NCBI GenBank assembly: GCA_020721805.1
Contig: DYMB01000006.1
Span: forward strand, 46,598-110,597
From: Acetofilamentum sp.
GTDB lineage: Bacteria; Hydrothermota; 32-111
Length of the DNA: 64,000 nucleotides
Direction of reading: 5' to 3'
Below, piece after piece: positions 5,686 through 17,675 of this stretch. A model generated the notes under the pieces. The model was not told the origin of the DNA. It ran no database searches and saw only the letters and a program-made list of their open reading frames with translations. Both the position numbers and the translations under genes were made by a program. Each line of letters begins with the position of its first letter. The first letter of the stretch is position 1.

Positions 5686-6156
5686 TTATTTATTAAATAT
5701 ATCGTTCAAAATGTTCTCGATTTCGTTTTTAAACTGAGCATCAAAGGTTATATTCTCTTCTTCTTCCTTCATAAGTGATAAAATATTCTGACATACTTTT
5801 TGGGACATAACCTGTATAACTCCAATGATCGCATTTTTTGTAAAGATGGAGATAAGAATTAAATCGTCAGTGATAGCATAATAAAAAAAAGAATATTTTT
5901 TACCTTCCTGAAAGAGAGTTAAAAAATAATCCTCTTTTAATAGTTTTGCTATACTTCTTGTAGCGTTGAATATTCCAGAACAGAGTGCTCCGATAGATTG
6001 GTTAAAATAATCATCATTTTTTTGACCATTTTGAAAAAGAATCTGTCCTGAGGTGTTTATGACCAAAACACTCGTTACTCTTGTCTCGATTGTAAATGCC
6101 CTCAATAACCGTTCAACATTTTTAACGGTAATTTCATCAAGAACAAGTTTTTTCAT
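5686..6156 (-). CDS. Roadblock/LC7-like small protein
   Basis: About 156 aa alpha/beta fold, TSVLVINTSGQILFQNG ... ILISIF pattern, adjacent to two more roadblock-like proteins. Confidence 0.5.
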   Translation of the reverse strand: MKKLVLDEITVKNVERLLRAFTIETRVTSVLVINTSGQILFQNGQKNDDYFNQSIGALCSGIFNATRSIAKLLKEDYFLTLFQEGKKYSFFYYAITDDLILISIFTKNAIIGVIQVMSQKVCQNILSLMKEEEENITFDAQFKNEIENILNDIFNK

Positions 6157-6166
6157 ATAATTTAAA

Positions 6167-6511
6167 TTAAATTAATTCCTGTAATGATGTTGCAATATTT
6201 TTAATCTGGATTATAAGAGATCCTATGTTAACATTCTTTTCAGCAAGTGTAAAAAGAATAAACTTTTCTTTTGAAATGAATAAAATTTCTCCCTTATCGG
6301 TATATATGGTTGAAAATATTGGAAGAGGATCCGTGCTCTTTCCAAGACTCTTTTCCATCTCAATATTTATCTTTGCGACCATCGCACCCAGAAGTTCAGC
6401 CAGATCAGTTTCGTAGAACAACTTTTCAACTATCAGTCCATCCTTTGTTAAAACCGCGACACCTTTTACCCCTCCTATTTCCATCACTTTTTCGATCTTT
6501 TCTTTTATCAT
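6167..6511 (-). CDS. Roadblock/LC7 domain protein (MglB-like)
   Basis: GGVKGVAVLTKDGLIVE ... AELLGAMVAKINIEME ... SLIIQIKNIATSLQELI. Confidence 0.7.
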   Translation of the reverse strand: MIKEKIEKVMEIGGVKGVAVLTKDGLIVEKLFYETDLAELLGAMVAKINIEMEKSLGKSTDPLPIFSTIYTDKGEILFISKEKFILFTLAEKNVNIGSLIIQIKNIATSLQELI

Positions 6512-7239
6512 TGTTCAAGCACCTGTTTTATATTTTTTAAAAGTTGTTTTGCCTTTATCAGTATCAATCCAATTTTTACAATCTCTTCTGTAAATATTCC
6601 AAGTATGTATCCATTACCTTTAAAAAGATATATTCTCACCTTGCCAATTTCTATAAATATTCTATCTATGGGTCCAAGATCTGTTTTCCCTATAGAATCT
6701 TCACAGACCAGAAAAATTGTAGAGAATAAGGCTGAGGTTATTTCAGGATCAAGATTCTCAATCATCTTCGATTTGACAACAAGTCCAGATTCTTCAATTA
6801 TGATACTTCCCAAAACACCGTTTACTTTATTGATCTCACCAAGTGATCTATCGAGTAAACTTTCAGTTTCATTTGCTGTTATAATATTTTCTTTTTCGAT
6901 TTTTTCCATCACCTCAAGATTTACAGATGAAATGGTTTCTTCCTTTTTTTCTGGTTTATTTTCTTCCAATTTCTTCACAGGCTCAACGAAAGACTTTATC
7001 TGTTGATCATCTGGATATTCATTTAATAGTTCGTTCAGAACATTCAAAGCTGTTGGATCGTTTAACCCCTTTAAAGATTTGTAAAGAAGAATTTTTGCAT
7101 CCTTTATATCTGGAAATTCAGAAAGAATCATTTTGCAGTATGTTATCGCTTCATTGTATGCTTTATTCTTGTAAAGATCCTCAGCGATCATTATAAAAAC
7201 GGAAAGACTCTCCCTATCAACTTTCATCCCCTCATTCAA
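6508..7239 (-). CDS. TPR plus C-terminal roadblock/LC7-like domain protein
   Basis: N-terminal TPR-like helices; C-terminal VNGVLGSIIIEESGLVVKSK ... GYILGIFTEEIVKIGLILIKAKQ. Confidence 0.65.
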   Translation of the reverse strand: MNEGMKVDRESLSVFIMIAEDLYKNKAYNEAITYCKMILSEFPDIKDAKILLYKSLKGLNDPTALNVLNELLNEYPDDQQIKSFVEPVKKLEENKPEKKEETISSVNLEVMEKIEKENIITANETESLLDRSLGEINKVNGVLGSIIIEESGLVVKSKMIENLDPEITSALFSTIFLVCEDSIGKTDLGPIDRIFIEIGKVRIYLFKGNGYILGIFTEEIVKIGLILIKAKQLLKNIKQVLEQ

Positions 7240-8341
7240 ATTTACCTCCTAAAAATTCTTCAAAAAGTTTTTGACTTTCCTTCAAATGATCTATGAGTTT
7301 TTCAATCTTACTCTGCTTTTCTGGAGTTTTAAGAAGATCGTAAAGAGATATCAACTCTTCTATACTCTTTTCTAACATTCCTCTTTTGAAATAAGCAAAA
7401 GAGTTATACTTTTTTATAAAAGGATCATCCATCTGTTCTTTTTTTACAAGTGAAGCGTAATCGTTAACCTTTTCAAACTGGCCTGTAGCAAAAAAAGAGT
7501 ATATTATCATTCTATAAGCATCGATATTTTTTGGATCAATTTTTAAATAGTTTTTTAGTTCTAAAATCGATTTGTCGTAAAGTCCATCATCAAAATAATG
7601 CTTTGCAACATCAAAAGAATTTTTATCGGATTCAATATGCGATGTTTCAACAACAACGATTCCAAGGGTTATCATTCCATAAATCAATTTTGCGATTTCA
7701 AATTCATCCCCATACCTTTCAGCAATATCTTTAATACTGTTTTTTCCATTTATCATAGAAAAAATTTCCCATTCTTTGGGTTTCAAATCCAGAAGATCCA
7801 TCTTATCAGGATTATCAGAGATTTTTGGCACCACAGATGAATTGGGAATCTTGGAAGATAATCTTGACCATTCGTCTATCCTTCTGGAACCTTCCATTAT
7901 CAGGGATTCAGTTTTTATTCTAAACTTTATTAAATTATCAAGTAATATACTGGTTTCCTCAAATTTGAAATAACCATCTTTCCATTCGAAAAGTTTAAAA
8001 ATAGTATCTTCGATTCTTAACTGCAAGAATTTTCTTAACTCGTTTTCACTCATAATTTTCATCTTTACTACCTCTCTTGCAAACTCCAGATCATCGTTAG
8101 GTATCCTGTTTAAGATTTTCTCTTCATAAAATTCCTTTGTTATTTTTCCCGCTTTGATCAAAAGCAAAGGTAGATTGATTCCCTCAACATTAGCATAGAC
8201 AACGTTTCCCTTTTCAAAAAAAACATTTGCTTTTTGATCATTAACAGATTTAATCCTCAGAATACCACTCTTCTGGTTGAAAGAGAGTATTTGAAAGAGA
8301 TCTATCAGGTTGAGTTCGCTTATCGGTCCTTCTATAGCCAA
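7232..8341 (-). CDS. PATAN/DUF4388-type protein with C-terminal TPR
   Basis: MAIEGPISELNLIDLFQILSFNQKSGILRI ... VFFEKGNVVYANV typical of DUF4388/PATAN. Confidence 0.75.
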   Translation of the reverse strand: MAIEGPISELNLIDLFQILSFNQKSGILRIKSVNDQKANVFFEKGNVVYANVEGINLPLLLIKAGKITKEFYEEKILNRIPNDDLEFAREVVKMKIMSENELRKFLQLRIEDTIFKLFEWKDGYFKFEETSILLDNLIKFRIKTESLIMEGSRRIDEWSRLSSKIPNSSVVPKISDNPDKMDLLDLKPKEWEIFSMINGKNSIKDIAERYGDEFEIAKLIYGMITLGIVVVETSHIESDKNSFDVAKHYFDDGLYDKSILELKNYLKIDPKNIDAYRMIIYSFFATGQFEKVNDYASLVKKEQMDDPFIKKYNSFAYFKRGMLEKSIEELISLYDLLKTPEKQSKIEKLIDHLKESQKLFEEFLGGKFE

Positions 8342-8349
8342 TTTGACTC

Positions 8350-11058
8350 CTATTCAAATATCGATATCCAATTTCTTGCTGCCTCTATCGCTTTCTGACT
8401 TTTGATAGCGAATTCAGAACCGGGAGCATTTTTTGTGACACTGTTCCATCTTTCAATCGCTTCCTTTATATAACCTTCTTTGGCTATAAGTTTAGCATAA
8501 TTAAAATTCGCTTCAGCATTATTGTTATCGAGTTTTAGAATATTTTGATACGCATCCTTTGCCACTTCAAAATTATCGATTTCCTGACATATAGCCCCTA
8601 TCTTTAAAAACGCTTTTATGTTTGCAGGATCTATCTGAACTATTCTTGTGTAAATTTGAATCGTTTTGTCAAAATCTTCATCAAGTTCATATAACATACC
8701 AAGTTCCCAGAGATAATCTAAGTTATTATAATCTTTGCTGACAAGAGATTCCAGTATCTTTATCGATTCATCATAAATTTTCATTTTTCTTAAAAGATTT
8801 GCCTTTTTAAACAGGATTTCAAAATTCTCAGGGAAGATCTTCAGTATACGGTCATAGATTTCAAGAACATCTTTATCCCTGTTCTGAGAAAAATATATTT
8901 CTGCAAGATTTGAAAGAGCATCAACATTTTCTGGTTCCTTTATAAGGATATCTCCAATTATTTTGATCGCATCATCAAGTTTATTGTTCTTCCATAAAAG
9001 CATGGCATAGAGGTTCATAATTTCAGTTGGAGAATTATCTTTTTGAATTATTTTGGATAAATATTCAAGAGGTTCATTGTAAACACCTTTACCGTATAAT
9101 AATTTTGAAAGTTTGAAGACCGCACTTCTATTTAAAGGTGAAATGTTAACGATCTTTTTATAATACTCTTCAGCCTCACCATAAATATTTTTAATATTGT
9201 AAACATCCGCGATCAATTCAAGCATTTCAATATCATTTTCATCTTTTCTCACCACTTCCAGTGCTAACTGTAAAGCTGCGTCGTATTCACTTTTATCAAA
9301 AGATTCCTTCGCTTTTTTTCTCTTATCATCAATTACATCTATCTCTTTTAATTTATCATCCTCTTTTTCAAAAGTATCCTCAGTTTCCTCTTCAAAAACA
9401 GCTGTAAAAATATCTGCACTTTTTTGTTCATCCATCAAAAATCCTTCAAGCTGCTCAGAAGATGTTACCTGATAATCCTTGGACAATGTTCCACTTATAA
9501 GGACATCAACCTTATCGGCATAGTAATCGAGTCCAAGTTTATATCTCGTTTCAACATAATATGGATTCAACTTTAAAGCCTCTTTGGTATACTTTAAAGC
9601 CTCTTCGTACTTTCCAATTTTAGATAATGTAAATGCAAGATTATAATATGCTTCAGCAAATTTTTCATCATATTGAATCGCTTTTTCGAAAACTTTTATG
9701 GCATCCTCATATTTACCATTTTCTCTATAAATTATTCCGAGATAGTTATAGGTGAGAGGATAATCTCCCTTTACCTCCAGAACCCTATCTATAAATTTTT
9801 TTGCCTGTTCAAAATTTTTTCTCTCGATGTTTAAAATCGAAAGGTTGATAAGAGCATCAACATAGTCATCTCTGATCTCGAGAGATTTTAAAAACAACTT
9901 TTCACCTTCATCATTCTTGTTGAGATGCACCATCGCTATACCGATATTGTTGTATGCCATAACATACATCGGATCAATTTTGATGGACTGATTGTAACAT
10001 TCAACAGCCTTACTCAATTCTCCTTTTCTGTGAAAGGCTATACCCATATCGTTATAAGCCTTTGCGGCAAACGATTCATCTTTTAACGCGAGTTTGTATT
10101 CATCTATCGCTTTATCATTTTCTCCAAGAAGAAGATATATCTCTCCAATCTGTATATGAATTATGGATCTTTCAGGTTCAACTGATTCGGCTTTTCTGAA
10201 TTCCTTTAAAGCTTCGTTGAATAATCCTTTATTTCTGAAACCTATACCCAGAGTAAAATAGGTCAAAAAACTGTTTGGCTGGAACGAAACATTAGACTCC
10301 TCGTTGAGAAAAGATTGATACGCTCCCTGTTGGTAAAATTCTATCCCGAGATTAGCCTGCGTTTTTCCATATGCTGGATTGAGTTTTATAGCCTTTTTCG
10401 TCTCTTTTATCGCATCATCGAAAAGCCCTTTTTCACCATAAACAAAACCTAAAAGAAAATGCGCTTCGGCAAGGTTTACATCAAGTTCAAGTGCCTTCTG
10501 GAACTCTTTTATCGCTGAATCAAGTATTCCCTTATTGTAATAAACTTCTCCAAGCATTGAATGTATCTGAGCAGATTCGGGTTGAAACTTTAAAGATTTT
10601 CTGTATTCCTCTATAGAATCATCATACATCCCTAAAGATTTATATATTTTGGCAAGATTCAATCTTGCATCGATAAAGGATGGATTCCCCTTTAAAATCT
10701 TTTTGTATTCAGCGATAGCATCAAGTGATTTACCCATATTGTTCAAAGCTTCCGCTAATTTGAATCTTGTATTCAAATCTTCTTGATCGTTTTCTAAAAT
10801 ATTTCTATATTCATATATTTTTTTGTCATACATTCCGGTTTCACGGTATATAAGTTCAAGGTTGTTTTTTGCAAGAGTAAATCTTGGATCTATTGATAAA
10901 GCCTTTTCTAACTCTTCTATGGCTTCATCGTAGAGTCCTTTATTGTAGTAAACAACGGCAAGATTGTTATGTGCTCCAGCATCTTTAGGATCTATTCTCT
11001 GTGCCAGTGATTTTAAAACCTTTTTCTCCGCTTCAGAAATCTGGATCTGTTTTTTCAT
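8350..11058 (-). CDS. Large (902 aa) TPR-repeat protein
   Basis: Roughly twenty degenerate 34-aa repeats of the form AYNNLGIAYxxKGxYDEAIxEFxKALxLDPxx. Confidence 0.9.
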   Translation of the reverse strand: MKKQIQISEAEKKVLKSLAQRIDPKDAGAHNNLAVVYYNKGLYDEAIEELEKALSIDPRFTLAKNNLELIYRETGMYDKKIYEYRNILENDQEDLNTRFKLAEALNNMGKSLDAIAEYKKILKGNPSFIDARLNLAKIYKSLGMYDDSIEEYRKSLKFQPESAQIHSMLGEVYYNKGILDSAIKEFQKALELDVNLAEAHFLLGFVYGEKGLFDDAIKETKKAIKLNPAYGKTQANLGIEFYQQGAYQSFLNEESNVSFQPNSFLTYFTLGIGFRNKGLFNEALKEFRKAESVEPERSIIHIQIGEIYLLLGENDKAIDEYKLALKDESFAAKAYNDMGIAFHRKGELSKAVECYNQSIKIDPMYVMAYNNIGIAMVHLNKNDEGEKLFLKSLEIRDDYVDALINLSILNIERKNFEQAKKFIDRVLEVKGDYPLTYNYLGIIYRENGKYEDAIKVFEKAIQYDEKFAEAYYNLAFTLSKIGKYEEALKYTKEALKLNPYYVETRYKLGLDYYADKVDVLISGTLSKDYQVTSSEQLEGFLMDEQKSADIFTAVFEEETEDTFEKEDDKLKEIDVIDDKRKKAKESFDKSEYDAALQLALEVVRKDENDIEMLELIADVYNIKNIYGEAEEYYKKIVNISPLNRSAVFKLSKLLYGKGVYNEPLEYLSKIIQKDNSPTEIMNLYAMLLWKNNKLDDAIKIIGDILIKEPENVDALSNLAEIYFSQNRDKDVLEIYDRILKIFPENFEILFKKANLLRKMKIYDESIKILESLVSKDYNNLDYLWELGMLYELDEDFDKTIQIYTRIVQIDPANIKAFLKIGAICQEIDNFEVAKDAYQNILKLDNNNAEANFNYAKLIAKEGYIKEAIERWNSVTKNAPGSEFAIKSQKAIEAARNWISIFE

Positions 11059-11063
11059 TTATC

Positions 11064-11681
11064 CTACCTGTTTAAAAAATCAAGAAGTTTTTTTAAAGAT
11101 ATCGGATCGGGTAAAAGTATAAGGTATCCTTTTAAAGGTTGTGGTTCATCTTCAAAGGTAAACTCTGTTTCAACACAGAAAACTATATCTTTGTTTGCGC
11201 TAAAATCTATATAGGCAGAAGTTACAACAGCGGAACCTATATCTATGACAAGGTTTGGAACAGAAGGTAGAATAAGCATGTTGAGAAAATCACTCATCGC
11301 TGTAAGGTATGAACCTACAACTATATTGGCAACCTCCTTTATTGCGGATTGCTCTATTTCACTCAATACCGTAGTGGTTCCAACAGGTTTCCCCATAACC
11401 ATATCGACAAGAAGCATGGATTCATCTCTTGGAAAAAGAAGTAATGTCCTTCCAGTAAGATCTCCAAGAAATTTCACAAGTACACCGGTTACGATTTCAT
11501 CCTGATTGTCGATTATTCTATAAATTTCCTCAGAGGAAATTAAATGAACTTTTGGAACAGATACCATAACTCTTTTGTTAACCAACTGGGAGAGAACTGT
11601 CGCTGCATGACCACCACCAATGTTTGATATTTCTTTGATACCATCGAGGTGAAAATCTTTCAGGTTCTTATAATCTATCAT
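11064..11681 (-). CDS. cheC: CheC-like CheY-P phosphatase
   Basis: Two CheC phosphatase motifs: DGIKEISNIGGGHA ... P and EQSAIKEVANIVVGSY ... P. Confidence 0.88.
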   Translation of the reverse strand: MIDYKNLKDFHLDGIKEISNIGGGHAATVLSQLVNKRVMVSVPKVHLISSEEIYRIIDNQDEIVTGVLVKFLGDLTGRTLLLFPRDESMLLVDMVMGKPVGTTTVLSEIEQSAIKEVANIVVGSYLTAMSDFLNMLILPSVPNLVIDIGSAVVTSAYIDFSANKDIVFCVETEFTFEDEPQPLKGYLILLPDPISLKKLLDFLNR

Positions 11682-11684
11682 AAA

Positions 11685-13547
11685 TTACCCCACTTTTGAA
11701 ATCGTTACGATCCCTGGAACATCCACAATAAAAGAAGGCATCCCATTATTTAAAATTGTTACACCTGCCAGCCCAGGTATTCCAGCAAGCATTCCCTTTA
11801 AAGGTTTTACAACGACTTCCGATTGTTCAACAAAATTTTCTACCAGTATTCCATACAGGGATTCATCAACTTCAACCAGAACTATTTGAAAATTCTCTTT
11901 TTCTCTATTATATTCGCTTTTGAAAATATCCGCAAGTCGTATCAATGGGACTATACCTTCTCTGAGAATAAATACTTCTTTCCCCATTATTGTATAAATT
12001 TCATCCATATTTATTCTAATGGTTTCAACTATATGTGTCAAAGGTATTATGTATACCTCCGAGCCTACATTTACAAGCAAAGCTTTTATTATCGCGAGTG
12101 TTAAAGGAACTTTTAAAATAAATGTGGTTCCTCTACCCGTCTGCGAAGAGATCTCAAGTGTCCCACCTATATGTTTTAAAACATTATAGACCGCATCAAC
12201 ACCAACACCCCTTCCTGATATATCTGTGACCTCCTCCTTGGTTGAAAATCCACTATTTAAGATAAGGGAGAATACCTCATGATCACTCATCCTTGTAGAT
12301 TCATCCTCGGAAATCAAATTTAAAGATATCGCTTTTGAAATGATCTTGTTTTTGTCCAATCCCTTTCCATCATCTGAAACAATAATTAAAACTCCATTCT
12401 TTACCCTTTTCGTCTCAAGCAAGATATAACCTTCTGGAGATTTTTTATTTTTTATTCTTTCATCGGGTGTTTCAATACCGTGATCCACAGCATTTTTTAA
12501 AAGATGAAGTAATGGATCCGCAAGAGCGTTCAGTATGGCTCTATCAAGTTCTATATCACTTCCTTTTATTTCAAATTTTATTTTTTTGTTTAATCTGTTT
12601 GAAAGATCCCTCATAAATCTTGGATATCTATCAAAAACCTGTCCTACAGGGACCATTCTGATTTTCATTATTTCATCCTGTATAGCTGAAATTGTTTTTG
12701 ATGCCGAATTCAGAGAATTTATCAAATCTTCATTTTGAATAGAATAAGCTATCTGCTGTAATCTTCCTCTTTCTATAACAAGTTCTGCTATATAATTTTG
12801 AAGGTTATCGAGTCTTTCAAGTGATACCTTAATATCCTTTTTTTCAATAACCACATCGTTATCACTCTTTGCCTCATCTTTAACAACAACATCTTTTATT
12901 TCTGGAATACTTTTTATATCATCTATTAAAGGTGCAATTTCTTTTACATTTTTGATGTTTATATTAATCTCGTTACCGAATTTTTCTTTCATTATAGAAT
13001 CGAAATCAGGTTCGGTATTTATAAAAATATTTTTATCCTGTAGACTTTTTATAACCACATAGGCTCTTGCCGATTTTAAAACCACATCATCAGCAAAGAT
13101 TACTTTTAAAGTTATATTTTTTTCATTCTCTTTTTTTTCTTCAACTTTTTCGGTTTCTATTATTTTTTTAGATGTTTCAACACCCGTTTTGATCGATTCT
13201 ATAACCTTTAAAAAACTTTTTATTATGTTCTCATCGATTTCCCTTTTATTGACAAGAGAGGTTAGGTAATCGGTCCCCTTCAACAAAAGATCTATCAAAT
13301 CAACCGTTATGTTGAGTTTTGAATTCCTTATAAGATCCATAATATCTTCCATGGCATGGGAAATCTTTGTTATTGAAGAATAGCCCATAGAAGCAGCCAT
13401 ACCTTTAAGTGTATGCATACCTCTAAAAATTGAATTGATAGCTTCAGTATCGTTCATATCCTTCTCAAGTTTGAGAATTGAATTGGATATCTGCTCTAAA
13501 TAATCTTCCGCTTCACTTATGAACAATTCTTCATAATTTGAATTCAT
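11685..13547 (-). CDS. cheA: Chemotaxis histidine kinase CheA
   Basis: HPt IFRGMHTLKGMA; LLHLLKNAVDHGIETP; VSDDGKGLD; DISGRGVGVDAV; C-terminal CheW-like domain. Confidence 0.95.
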   Translation of the reverse strand: MNSNYEELFISEAEDYLEQISNSILKLEKDMNDTEAINSIFRGMHTLKGMAASMGYSSITKISHAMEDIMDLIRNSKLNITVDLIDLLLKGTDYLTSLVNKREIDENIIKSFLKVIESIKTGVETSKKIIETEKVEEKKENEKNITLKVIFADDVVLKSARAYVVIKSLQDKNIFINTEPDFDSIMKEKFGNEININIKNVKEIAPLIDDIKSIPEIKDVVVKDEAKSDNDVVIEKKDIKVSLERLDNLQNYIAELVIERGRLQQIAYSIQNEDLINSLNSASKTISAIQDEIMKIRMVPVGQVFDRYPRFMRDLSNRLNKKIKFEIKGSDIELDRAILNALADPLLHLLKNAVDHGIETPDERIKNKKSPEGYILLETKRVKNGVLIIVSDDGKGLDKNKIISKAISLNLISEDESTRMSDHEVFSLILNSGFSTKEEVTDISGRGVGVDAVYNVLKHIGGTLEISSQTGRGTTFILKVPLTLAIIKALLVNVGSEVYIIPLTHIVETIRINMDEIYTIMGKEVFILREGIVPLIRLADIFKSEYNREKENFQIVLVEVDESLYGILVENFVEQSEVVVKPLKGMLAGIPGLAGVTILNNGMPSFIVDVPGIVTISKVG

Positions 13548-13553
13548 AGTTTT

Positions 13554-13922
13554 CTATTTTAAATTCAAAACTCTATTAACGGATTCAAGCACCCTTGAAG
13601 GTTGAAAGGGTTTCACTACAAAGTCCTTCGCACCAGCCTGTATGGCTTCAACAACCAGTGATTGTTGTCCCATCGCTGATACCATTAAAATTTTAGCATT
13701 GGGAAACTCTTTTATGATCTCTCTTACGGCATCGATACCGGACATATCTGGCATTATGATATCCATGGTTACAAGATCGGGCTGTAACTCCCTGTACATC
13801 TGAACCGCCTGTGTACCGCTTCCAGCTTCACCACAGATCTCAAATCCTTCCTTTTTTAAAATATCAGAGATCATTCTTCTCATAAAGATCGCATCATCAA
13901 CAATAAGCACCCTTGTAGCCAT
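13554..13922 (-). CDS. cheY: CheY-type single-domain response regulator
   Basis: VLIVDDAIFMRRMI, LVTMDIIMPDMSG, MVSAM, FVVKPF. Confidence 0.93.
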   Translation of the reverse strand: MATRVLIVDDAIFMRRMISDILKKEGFEICGEAGSGTQAVQMYRELQPDLVTMDIIMPDMSGIDAVREIIKEFPNAKILMVSAMGQQSLVVEAIQAGAKDFVVKPFQPSRVLESVNRVLNLK

Positions 13923-13933
13923 ATCGATTCCTC

Positions 13934-14338
13934 CTAATTTTTATTTAGAATATTTTTAACATCAATAATTATTATCTCTCTTCCATCCTTTTGAATAAAA
14001 CCCTTTATATAACCTTCTTCGATTTCCTCCATGTTGACAGATTCAACATTTATAATACCTTCTATCGAGTCTACAAGAAATCCATATTTTTCTTTGTTGT
14101 TCTCACATATGATTATATAATTTTCTTCAACTTTTTTGTTGATCCTTAATTTTTCTTTCAAAGAAACCAGAACAACAACCTCTCCTCTTAAATTTATAAC
14201 TCCATAAAGAAAATTCTCTGCATTTGGAATTCTCACCGCTGGTAGTTTTTCATAGATATCGATAATATCTGAAATATGTATACCATAAAACTTCTCTTCA
14301 ATTTTAAAAGTGATAAACTGTTTATTTTCGTTTTTCAT
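13934..14338 (-). CDS. cheW: CheW-like coupling protein (ORF track starts at 14398; internal Met at 14338 preferred)
   Basis: FITFKIEEKFYGIHISDIIDIYE ... VINLRGEVVVLVSL; longer start would overlap the upstream gene by 77 nt. Confidence 0.88.
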   Translation of the reverse strand: MKNENKQFITFKIEEKFYGIHISDIIDIYEKLPAVRIPNAENFLYGVINLRGEVVVLVSLKEKLRINKKVEENYIIICENNKEKYGFLVDSIEGIINVESVNMEEIEEGYIKGFIQKDGREIIIIDVKNILNKN

Positions 14339-17300
14339 CCAATTCCTTCCAGCAATATTCAATGGGCAATTTATCCAAGGGATGGAGATAAAATCCATGA
14401 ACTTTATTTAAAATTGCGGATTGTTTGTAATTATGTGTCAGGAAAACCCAGGGGGCATCATCCACTATCATTTCCTCTATTTTTTGATAGATACCGTTTC
14501 TCTCTTCATAGTTTGTGGTCATCCTTGCTTTTTCGATCAAAGAATCTATTGTTTTATTTGAATAGAAAGAATTGTTTCCACCATCTCCAAAACTATAAGT
14601 ATGAAATAGAGGATAGAGGAAATTATCAGGTTCTCCAGTATCACCTGCCCAGCCCATCATAAAAATATCACATTTGCCAGAATGCATTCTTTCAAGAAGT
14701 TCCAACCATTTGAGAGGAATTATTTTAATTCTTATACCTATTTCCTTCCACATCGCTAAAAGTAATTCAGCCCTTTTTATAACAGTTTCGCTATCAGAGC
14801 AGATCATTTCAAATTGATTTTTTATACCATCAGGATAACCCGATTTTATCATAAGTTCTCTTGCTTTTGCAGGATTGTAAGGATAACCTTCAAGCAATTT
14901 ATTATAACAGGGTAAAGATGGTGGAAAGATGCCTTTCGCTATTATTCCAAGTCCATACATAGTTTCATTTATATACCTTGTTTTATCCGTTGCATAGTTA
15001 ATCGCCTTTCTGACATCTTTTATAAATGCCAGTTCATTTCTTCTTGACAGGTTGAATCCAACATATTGAACATCGAGTGAAGAAATGGTTAAAATATTTA
15101 TATCTATCCTGTTCGATTTTTTTAAAACTTCCAGGTCCTTTACATTGATCGAAGAGTAATCTATATCCCCTGATAAAAGATTTTTAAATTCCTCCTCTTC
15201 TTTTTTTAATTTTATTATGATACTCTCAACAAAAGGTTCACCCTCAAAATAATCTTTGTTGGATTCCATCTCTATCCTATCTTCCCAGATACCTTTTAAA
15301 ACGAATGCACCACAACCGATACAATTAGATTTCATTTTTTCATCAGAAAATTTCACCATATCCTTTTTTAATATTGATAAAGGGAGAACGGCAAGGTTTG
15401 AAAGAAACGGAATATATGGATATTCAAGAATGAATTTTATAGTATGATCATCGATGATTTTTATCCCTTCAACATCCCTTACTCTTCTTTTCATATAATC
15501 TGTGGAACCTTTGATCATATTAACGAAAGAGGCGTTTGGAGTTAACAGAACATTTTTGATAGTTTCCGAAACATCTTCTGATGTAACAGGTGTGCCATCA
15601 TGAAAATATGCGTTCTCTCTCAAAAAGAATATCCATTCGGTTGCATCAGAATTTATCTGCCAGGATTTTGCCAGAGCTGGTATAACACTAGTATCCTTTC
15701 CAAATTTAACAAGACCACAATGTATATGTTGTAATATAGTATTACTCGTGGAATCCCCGACAAGAGCGGGATGCCAGTGAACCGGGAAATTGTTCATAAT
15801 GAATCTGAAAACATTTCTTTCGGTATTCCGTTTTGGAAGATATTTTTGTGAAAAAGTATCCATAATGCCGGAAACCATTTTTTCAGTATCCTCATTTTTC
15901 AACAGATCGTCTTTAAACATCTTGTTCAACTCTTCAGCTTTGATCGTTATCTGTTGGAATTTTTTTATTATATCGGTATAAATTTTTACTATCTCATCTT
16001 TTAATTTTTCCTGATTTGAAAGTGAGTTATAAATTTCTTTTAAAAGGGTTTTGTAATTTTCAGTGGATTTCTTTGTTTCGACAACAACAGAGTTACTCAT
16101 CTCGATGGAAGAGATTATATCGTTTGATGATGATAATTCCCTTTCAGCTACTTTTACAACATTTTTTAAAAGTTCGTCCATATTCTTTACAATGTCGTTG
16201 ATTTCAGAAGATGCCTCAGTTGTCCTTTTTATAAGATCTTTTGTTTGTAAAACTATCACTGAAAGATTGTTTTGAAATTTTGCATCCCTTGCAGCCTCAA
16301 TAGCAGCATAAAGGGATAGAAGTTTTGTTTGTTCGGAAAGATCTTTTAATTCGGAACTCGTTTTTATTATTTCCTTAAGATTATCGGAAATCTGAGTAAA
16401 AACAATTTTCAGGTTATTTATATATTCAAGAGTTTTTTCTATTTCATTTTTCATGTTGGTTATACTTGTTGAAAATTCGTTTACCGAACCTATCAGAAGG
16501 TTTAAATTATCTTCAATTTCACCAACATTTTTCATCATCAACTGTTCACTCTCTTCTATAGATTCGACTGCACCAAAATAATTTTTTATCACCTCTTCCT
16601 GTTGTAAATTACTTTGAATAAAATCATCTATTACACTCATCATGGAATCAACGATGTTTTTACTGTTTTCTAAAAAATATTTTATCTTTTTAAATATTTT
16701 GATTTCTGTGAAAATAGCATGGTCTAAATCTTTTTTCTCATATATAAAATTCGAAAGGGGTTCAAGTTGGTCCATCAGATGGGAAAGAAAGATTTTAACA
16801 TCGGATTGGGTTTTTAATATCGATAAAAGTTTTTCAGTATTCTGCAGGGAATGATCAATAATATACTGAATTTTTTTATTAAGATCACTGATCGAGGCTT
16901 TATTCTTGTTCTGTATGTTGCTATACTCTTTCATCCTATCCGATTTATTAACGATATCAACAAGATTCATCTCAACATTCTTTAATCTAAAATTCAAAAG
17001 ATCAACATTTTTTGTTAAACTGTCTATTTTAAAATTTATTTCATCTATCATCTCAACAACTTTTTCATTTTTCTGTTGAACACCCTTTATGTTTTCAGGT
17101 ATCATCTTTGTAAGTTTAAAAGTCTTGTTTGCCAGAAGAAGCATTCTATCAGCAATAACCTCAAATCCCTTACCATTTTCACCAGCATGGTATGCTTTGA
17201 TTCCAGCATTTCTGGCGGCAGATTCTGTCATCTGGGCTATGTCGATAATTATCCCTGTTATCTGATCTATATGTTTTGAATATTCGTTTAAAGGCTTTAC

Positions 17301-17675
17301 ATTTTGAAGAATTTCATTCGACCCTGTAGCGAACATATTCAATTTTTCAATTATCCTATCAAACTCTTTAACACTCTTTTGAATATTTTCTGATGATTTT
17401 TTTGAATAATCTATTAAAACATCCGCGGCTTCCGAAACTATCTGGATGGAAGCGTAGAGTTGGTTACCTTTATTATCAATCTTTTGAATCTGACCGACAA
17501 CATCTTTTTCATCTCTTGAAATTTCAGAAAGAACTCCTGTTGCATTATTATTTATTTCAAGAAGTTCCTCTTCTTCAATTTTGACTGTCTTTAAAGCATA
17601 TATGAATGCCGTAGGATCAAATTCTTCTTCTTTCTTCGAATGGTTTTTCTTTAAAAAACTCAAAATTGATACCAT
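14322..17675 (-). CDS. Predicted cytoplasmic chemoreceptor: two MCP-signal-like modules fused to a C-terminal family-5 solute-binding domain
   Basis: Tip-like sequences IAQMTESAARNAGIKAYHAGENGKGFEVIADRMLLLANKT and LSEQTKLLSLYAAIEAARDAKFQNNLSVIVLQTKDLIKRT. C-terminal half has SBP_bac_5 features: LAKSWQINSDATEWIFFLRENAYFHDGTPVTSEDV, VRKAINYATDK, GYPYNPAKARELMIKSGYPDG, PDNFLYPLFHT. No obvious signal peptide or TM helix. Confidence 0.88.
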   Translation of the reverse strand: MVSILSFLKKNHSKKEEEFDPTAFIYALKTVKIEEEELLEINNNATGVLSEISRDEKDVVGQIQKIDNKGNQLYASIQIVSEAADVLIDYSKKSSENIQKSVKEFDRIIEKLNMFATGSNEILQNVKPLNEYSKHIDQITGIIIDIAQMTESAARNAGIKAYHAGENGKGFEVIADRMLLLANKTFKLTKMIPENIKGVQQKNEKVVEMIDEINFKIDSLTKNVDLLNFRLKNVEMNLVDIVNKSDRMKEYSNIQNKNKASISDLNKKIQYIIDHSLQNTEKLLSILKTQSDVKIFLSHLMDQLEPLSNFIYEKKDLDHAIFTEIKIFKKIKYFLENSKNIVDSMMSVIDDFIQSNLQQEEVIKNYFGAVESIEESEQLMMKNVGEIEDNLNLLIGSVNEFSTSITNMKNEIEKTLEYINNLKIVFTQISDNLKEIIKTSSELKDLSEQTKLLSLYAAIEAARDAKFQNNLSVIVLQTKDLIKRTTEASSEINDIVKNMDELLKNVVKVAERELSSSNDIISSIEMSNSVVVETKKSTENYKTLLKEIYNSLSNQEKLKDEIVKIYTDIIKKFQQITIKAEELNKMFKDDLLKNEDTEKMVSGIMDTFSQKYLPKRNTERNVFRFIMNNFPVHWHPALVGDSTSNTILQHIHCGLVKFGKDTSVIPALAKSWQINSDATEWIFFLRENAYFHDGTPVTSEDVSETIKNVLLTPNASFVNMIKGSTDYMKRRVRDVEGIKIIDDHTIKFILEYPYIPFLSNLAVLPLSILKKDMVKFSDEKMKSNCIGCGAFVLKGIWEDRIEMESNKDYFEGEPFVESIIIKLKKEEEEFKNLLSGDIDYSSINVKDLEVLKKSNRIDINILTISSLDVQYVGFNLSRRNELAFIKDVRKAINYATDKTRYINETMYGLGIIAKGIFPPSLPCYNKLLEGYPYNPAKARELMIKSGYPDGIKNQFEMICSDSETVIKRAELLLAMWKEIGIRIKIIPLKWLELLERMHSGKCDIFMMGWAGDTGEPDNFLYPLFHTYSFGDGGNNSFYSNKTIDSLIEKARMTTNYEERNGIYQKIEEMIVDDAPWVFLTHNYKQSAILNKVHGFYLHPLDKLPIEYCWKELDEKRK

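Follow-up and report, generated by a model that had tools for sequence, protein, structure and literature searches.

The window, a stretch of 64,000 nucleotides of contig DYMB01000006.1 from Acetofilamentum sp., harbors a chemotaxis operon on the minus strand. The host genome has a size of 1.70 Mb and is 99.8% complete. The first gene of the operon encodes a fusion of tandem MCP signalling hairpins with a C-terminal solute-binding domain and is followed by the genes for CheW, CheY, CheA, CheC, a TPR protein, a DUF4388 (PATAN) protein and three Roadblock/LC7 proteins:

14322-17675 (-), fusion gene, tandem MCP signalling hairpins plus SBP_bac_5, 1117 aa (ORF, Pfam, homologues)
13934-14338 (-), CheW, 134 aa, start codon at 14338 (Pfam, NCBIfam)
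13554-13922 (-), CheY, a single receiver domain (Pfam)
11685-13547 (-), CheA, the only one of the genome, with Hpt, P2, dimerisation, kinase and CheW-like domains (Pfam, genome search)
11064-11681 (-), CheC-type CheY-P phosphatase (Pfam, NCBIfam)
8350-11058 (-), TPR protein, 902 aa (Pfam, NCBIfam)
7232-8341 (-), DUF4388 (PATAN) protein (domain search)
5686-7239 (-), three Roadblock/LC7 (MglB-like) genes at 6508-7239, 6167-6511 and 5686-6156 (domain search)

The stop codon of the fusion gene lies inside the start of cheW, resulting in an overlap of 17 nt. A further in-frame ATG for CheW is located upstream at 14398, within the fusion gene. In deep relatives (L027, L028), the Che operon likewise contains the TPR protein, which shows weak similarity to PilW/Tgl and SgmX of type IV pili.

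The ORF is intact and, as proposed by an initial sequence-only reading of this DNA, joins an MCP to an SBP_bac_5 domain. Both Pfam families are matched well above their cut-offs. MCPsignal is found in two stretches (E 3e-27, 96 bits versus a cut-off of 34.6), which appear as separate matches in the same frame in a profile search of the genome, and SBP_bac_5 spans residues 664-1028 (E 2.4e-77, 261 bits versus 32.4), which bears out the assignment that the initial reading had made for the C-terminal part. No NCBIfam model attains its cut-off on the fusion protein. The same reading had seen neither a signal peptide nor a transmembrane helix, in agreement with the mean hydropathy over 19 residues, a simple measure, which reaches a maximum of 1.28 in the fusion protein and of 1.54 across 31 homologues. 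By comparison, values of 2.85-2.91 are obtained for the two transmembrane MCPs of the same genome and 1.94 for an SBP lipoprotein. By this criterion, a hidden transmembrane helix or signal peptide was ruled out in all 31 members. Since the binding domain, normally situated outside the membrane, is here part of a cytoplasmic receptor, what it senses is probably intracellular. The N-terminus (window positions 17640-17675) has the sequence MVSILSFLKKN (MVSFFNFLKRK in a sister species) and could form a short amphipathic, membrane-contacting helix; conservation of this segment is confined to the genus.

The strict methylation consensus, of which the two transmembrane MCPs of the genome contain 4 and 5 matches, is absent from the fusion protein and was found only once among 31 family members. 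A receptor devoid of this motif would not adapt, and judged from its sequence the fusion receptor is probably unmethylated and non-adapting.

The C-terminal part of the protein displays the fold of a DppA-like binding protein:

14325-15812 (-), SBP_bac_5 domain (aa ~622-1117), DppA/GbpA-like, without signal peptide (Pfam, AlphaFold2, Foldseek)
14640-14642 (-), codon of D1012, corresponding to DppA D436 in precursor numbering, invariant in 31/31 (alignment)

The closest solved relatives are GbpA and DppA, with TM-scores by target of 0.78-0.81 (Foldseek), and the whole two-lobed fold is kept. In a phylogeny with 76 free-standing SBPs, the 31 fused domains form one separate clade (31/31, support 0.974). 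Although the overall identity among them is only 25-30%, the equivalent of DppA D436, the Trp ahead of it and D641 are each found in 31/31. The equivalent of DppA R383, by contrast, is present in none of the 31 fused domains but in 69 of the 76 free-standing ones; a more careful alignment showed the R-P-Y loop to be deleted, a loss of three residues. Thus, of the Asp436/Arg383 pair with which DppA-type proteins hold the dipeptide ends, only the Asp is retained. In the DppA mutant of structure 8z1z, it is these two residues, R383 and D436, that are exchanged. Because the amine-binding Asp is kept while the carboxylate-binding Arg is lost, a plain dipeptide is unlikely as ligand.

A role of the domain in transport was ruled out for this genome, which contains no Opp/Dpp importer ATPase (oligo_HPY) and in which the fused domain carries no export signal. 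The only other SBP_bac_5 protein is of the lipoprotein type with a C-terminal TonB_C domain (L115:6302-8404(-); G000 contig C5, P0002), and the fused domain is therefore not a by-product of a transporter locus. The SBP-TonB_C fusion is odd in a genome lacking an Opp/Dpp ATPase; in most fusion-bearing relatives, SBP matches occur in open frames of ~680-735 aa. From the peptide or metabolite sensor suggested by the sequence-only reading, a sensor domain with an invariant amine-binding Asp remains, whereas the absence of the Arg from all fused SBPs, together with that of the importer ATPase, renders the term oligopeptide uncertain.

With the ligand-contacting Arg gone, the domain may bind nothing peptide-like at all. 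It could instead be a protein-docking or structural module, either capping the rod or binding a partner such as the long TPR protein of the same operon, in which case the receptor would act as a constitutive scaffold or activator of CheA; the missing methylation motifs, leaving no sign of a tuned receptor, would fit such a role. However, invariance of the two Asp residues and the Trp in domains that are otherwise so divergent goes beyond the needs of a pure scaffold, and the entire two-lobed fold has been retained, which makes a docking module rather unlikely. Based on these features, the fusion protein most likely senses a metabolite or peptide with an amino group in the cytoplasm, probably without adapting.

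The N-terminal part, for which an MCP-type stretch of ~620 residues had been predicted, is indeed of the MCP type, but its ~612 residues form two hairpins and not one:

16740-17615 (-), hairpin 1 (aa 21-312), two antiparallel helices of ~145 aa, heptad period 3.50 (AlphaFold2 helices, periodicity)
15840-16727 (-), hairpin 2 (aa ~317-612) (AlphaFold2, periodicity, second MCPsignal match)

AlphaFold2, applied to the hairpin part with seven sequences, yielded four helices of near-equal length (143, 149, 147 and 148 residues; pLDDT 86.9, pTM 0.62), which are broken at residue 164 (tip 1), residues 314-316 (mid-linker) and residue 464 (tip 2); this structure prediction, a check suggested at the outset, is concordant with a model of the whole chain. 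In all four arms the hydrophobic period is exactly 3.50, above 300/300 shuffles. The two hairpins are equal in length and connected by a mid-linker of ~4 residues, and the tip-to-tip spacing amounts to 285-306 aa throughout the family. A Foldseek search with the hairpin model mostly retrieved unrelated coiled coils, with weak matches to chemoreceptors (2ch7, TMt 0.52). The MCP part is thus a natural single-chain receptor in tandem, with two hairpins in one soluble chain. Most likely, the hairpins pack together into a single four-helix rod for signalling, i.e. a covalent pseudo-dimer, or do so via a swap with a neighbouring chain; the predictions comprised a single chain, and packing was judged from pTM and helix lengths rather than from coordinates.

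The tips of the two hairpins were compared with Tsr and with the transmembrane MCPs of the genome (ALNAAIEAARxGExGKGFxVVA):

17151-17213 (-), tip 1 (aa 155-175, RNAGIKAYHAGENGKGFEVIA) (comparison with Tsr, 31 members)
16287-16319 (-), tip 2 (aa 453-463, LSLYAAIEAAR) (comparison with Tsr, 31 members)

Tip 1, with the consensus RNAxIKA(F/Y)HAGxxGKGFEV, retains the Tsr residues N381, G390, G393, K/R394, G395 and F396 and carries R at L380, K/T/M at E385 and H at R388. Tip 2, with the consensus LSLYxxIEAAR, retains L378, L380, E385 and R388, has Tyr in place of N381 and is followed by a segment that has lost GxGRGF. This pattern is strictly kept within the family: N381, G390, G393, G395 and F396 of tip 1 are found in 31/31 members and E385 in 0/31, while tip 2 has E385 in 31/31, R/K388 in 29/31 and Tyr at N381 in 31/31. 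The canonical signature is therefore divided between the two tips, each feature being kept by one of them, and this complementary split appears to be new. Some of these positions are taken to be those contacting CheA and CheW. Such a split would be expected if the hairpins had become the inner and outer subunits of the receptor array, and from the sequences we infer roles of this kind for the two tips. The retention of F396 in tip 1 alone fits poorly with a clean inner/outer division, since in one model (PMC8144572) its stacking is placed at the interface of the trimer. Tandem MCP with split tips, missing methylation sites and the SBP Asp kept without its Arg are three features that the sequence-only reading did not contain.

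Alternatively, pairing could take place between chains, either hairpin 1 with hairpin 1 and hairpin 2 with hairpin 2 or in a swapped manner. Dimers of this type would contain no pseudo-dimer, and each assembly would hold two SBP domains, which could dimerise. Subunit swapping is seen in engineered single-chain Tsr (PMC4692393), and single-chain AlphaFold2 models would not reveal it. However, a pair of hairpins 1 would be without the E385/R388 lock and a pair of hairpins 2 without GxGRGF, so that only the mixed pair restores both, and the short linker between hairpins of equal length likewise points to intramolecular packing. Inter-chain pairing is accordingly regarded as improbable.

Within the phylum (WOR-3), ~46 of the 147 genomes encode full-length homologues (1035-1138 aa) that share the domain order, a few of them cut by contig ends, and so do 10/10 genomes searched of a second phylum (Edwardsbacteria/UBP2). 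The genome contigs were searched by alignment, using two short peptide patterns, and therefore other phyla may have been missed. Apparent MCP-SBP matches from Paenibacillus and Marinomonas (L091, L092) turned out to be separate genes. The same architecture thus exists elsewhere, as a search proposed at the beginning was meant to find out, and the possibility of two separate genes raised there is contradicted by homologues that run without interruption in dozens of independently assembled genomes. A wrong gene model or an assembly chimera of an MCP gene with a dppA gene, which the unusual combination and the meeting of the Pfam families only at residues ~612-622 might suggest, can practically be dismissed in view of the uninterrupted architecture in two phyla and the monophyly of the fused SBPs with their own loop deletion; with more than 31 independent full-length homologues, artefact, chimera and frameshift were all ruled out. 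The receptor architecture is real, conserved and unusual, and a sensor function is likely from its sequence features. Several genomes (families f10/f36, e.g. G016, G105, G108) encode the entire fusion twice, the second copy being more divergent, which suggests different ligands.

Within the first phylum, CheA is encoded in 45/147 genomes; 43 contain both genes, 3 the fusion alone and 2 CheA alone (Fisher p 5e-31, a value that overstates the evidence because genomes and not independent events are counted). The co-occurrence pattern is clear across many families. Fusion and CheA lie less than 6 kb apart in 32 of the 43 genomes, and in deep relatives the order CheW, CheY, CheA, CheC after the fusion is retained. 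In Edwardsbacteria/UBP2 the fusion is located beside other genes, and CheA is also present in the genome (two genomes tested). The evidence for a partnership with CheW and CheA is genomic, comprising the cheW overlap, the cheA operon and this co-occurrence. Together with the lack of an export signal, the intact fold and the invariant Asp, it supports the earlier proposal of an intracellular sensor wired to CheA/CheW, in which ligand binding and control of CheA would be the functional steps.

No flagellin was found in the genome, which ruled out a flagellar output of CheA, whereas five matches to T2SSE (PilB/PilT/GspE-type ATPases) were obtained. Given this combination, CheA most likely steers type IV pili. 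The PATAN and the three Roadblock/LC7 genes (5686-8341) behind the Che genes suggest that CheA is linked to the polarity of the pili in a Frz/MglAB-like manner. CheR and a second CheW are encoded at another locus together with a PilT-type ATPase; further neighbours, read by eye, appear to be CheD and CheB (from their sequence starts) and an MglA-like GTPase. An MglA-like GTPase (by eye) and a probable roadblock-like gene also adjoin the gene of a transmembrane MCP (L114:2526-5291), which may represent a second entry into the CheA/pilus pathway.

In the mechanism proposed, the signature that comprises GxGKGF would come from tip 1, and the E385/R388 lock, which serves in trimers of dimers, from tip 2. 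One DppA-like venus-flytrap domain, having lost its export signal, would be attached directly to helix 4, at the end of the rod distal to the tips. When this domain closes on an amino-group-bearing ligand of the cytosol, for instance a peptide or an amino metabolite, helix 4 would be altered and the sole CheA, met through the CheW of the overlapping gene, thereby biased. For want of methylation motifs, the fusion receptor would signal the internal level in absolute terms, leaving adaptation to the two transmembrane MCPs. The output would run via CheY, CheC and probably the PATAN, Roadblock and MglA proteins to type IV pili. Taken as a whole, this cytoplasmic single-chain receptor with specialised tips, ligand-sensing SBP and pilus output is a reasonably probable account of the protein. 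An extended version, namely an asymmetric natural single-chain chemoreceptor whose hairpins have become fixed in different places, one facing CheA/CheW and one at the trimer axis, and which is under the control of a cytosolic SBP and acts as core non-adapting input in two phyla, is put forward tentatively and with somewhat more doubt than belief.

Precedents exist for tandem MCPs and, separately, for cytoplasmic SBP_bac_5 sensors, but the two together appear to be new, and a non-exhaustive literature search found no description of a fusion of MCPsignal with SBP_bac_5. Natural soluble MCP domains in tandem occur in Rhodospirillum centenum and others, as cited in PMC4692393, and like the engineered, signalling-competent Tsr~Tsr of that work, whose two subunits take inner and outer trimer places, they have two signalling hairpins per soluble chain. 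In contrast to these, the fusion adds the C-terminal SBP_bac_5 and invariantly complementary tips, as judged from a comparison with Tsr and the transmembrane MCPs of the genome. SgrR and DsvR (HTH plus SBP_bac_5) share with the fusion a cytoplasmic SBP_bac_5 sensor (PMC13060122), in agreement with the precedent named in the sequence-only reading. However, the N-terminus of the fusion is an MCP without HTH match, its output is CheA instead of DNA, and the SgrR model matches it very weakly (27.8 bits versus a cut-off of 476). DppA and GbpA (HbpA) are the closest relatives of the SBP domain in sequence and fold and have W433 and D436 in common with it; unlike them, the fused domain lacks a signal peptide and a transporter, and its R383-P-Y loop is deleted. 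Receptors of the FrzCD/TlpT type in Tfp-type systems resemble the fusion in being cytoplasmic MCPs without transmembrane helices and in the presence of MglA, Roadblock and type IV pilus genes, but differ in the tandem hairpins and the SBP sensor. FrzCD is not known to be a tandem.

In ordinary receptors the subunits are identical although differently placed in the array, and mutations therefore cannot separate their jobs, a problem for which Mowery et al. built a single-chain Tsr (PMC4692393). The fusion family looks like a natural version in which these jobs have already been separated, making the question directly testable. Moreover, with this family chemoreceptors join the few systems, such as SgrR, in which a binding fold of the periplasmic type works in the cytoplasm. 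The finding also suggests that two little-known phyla receive their main chemosensory input from a metabolite or peptide within the cell.
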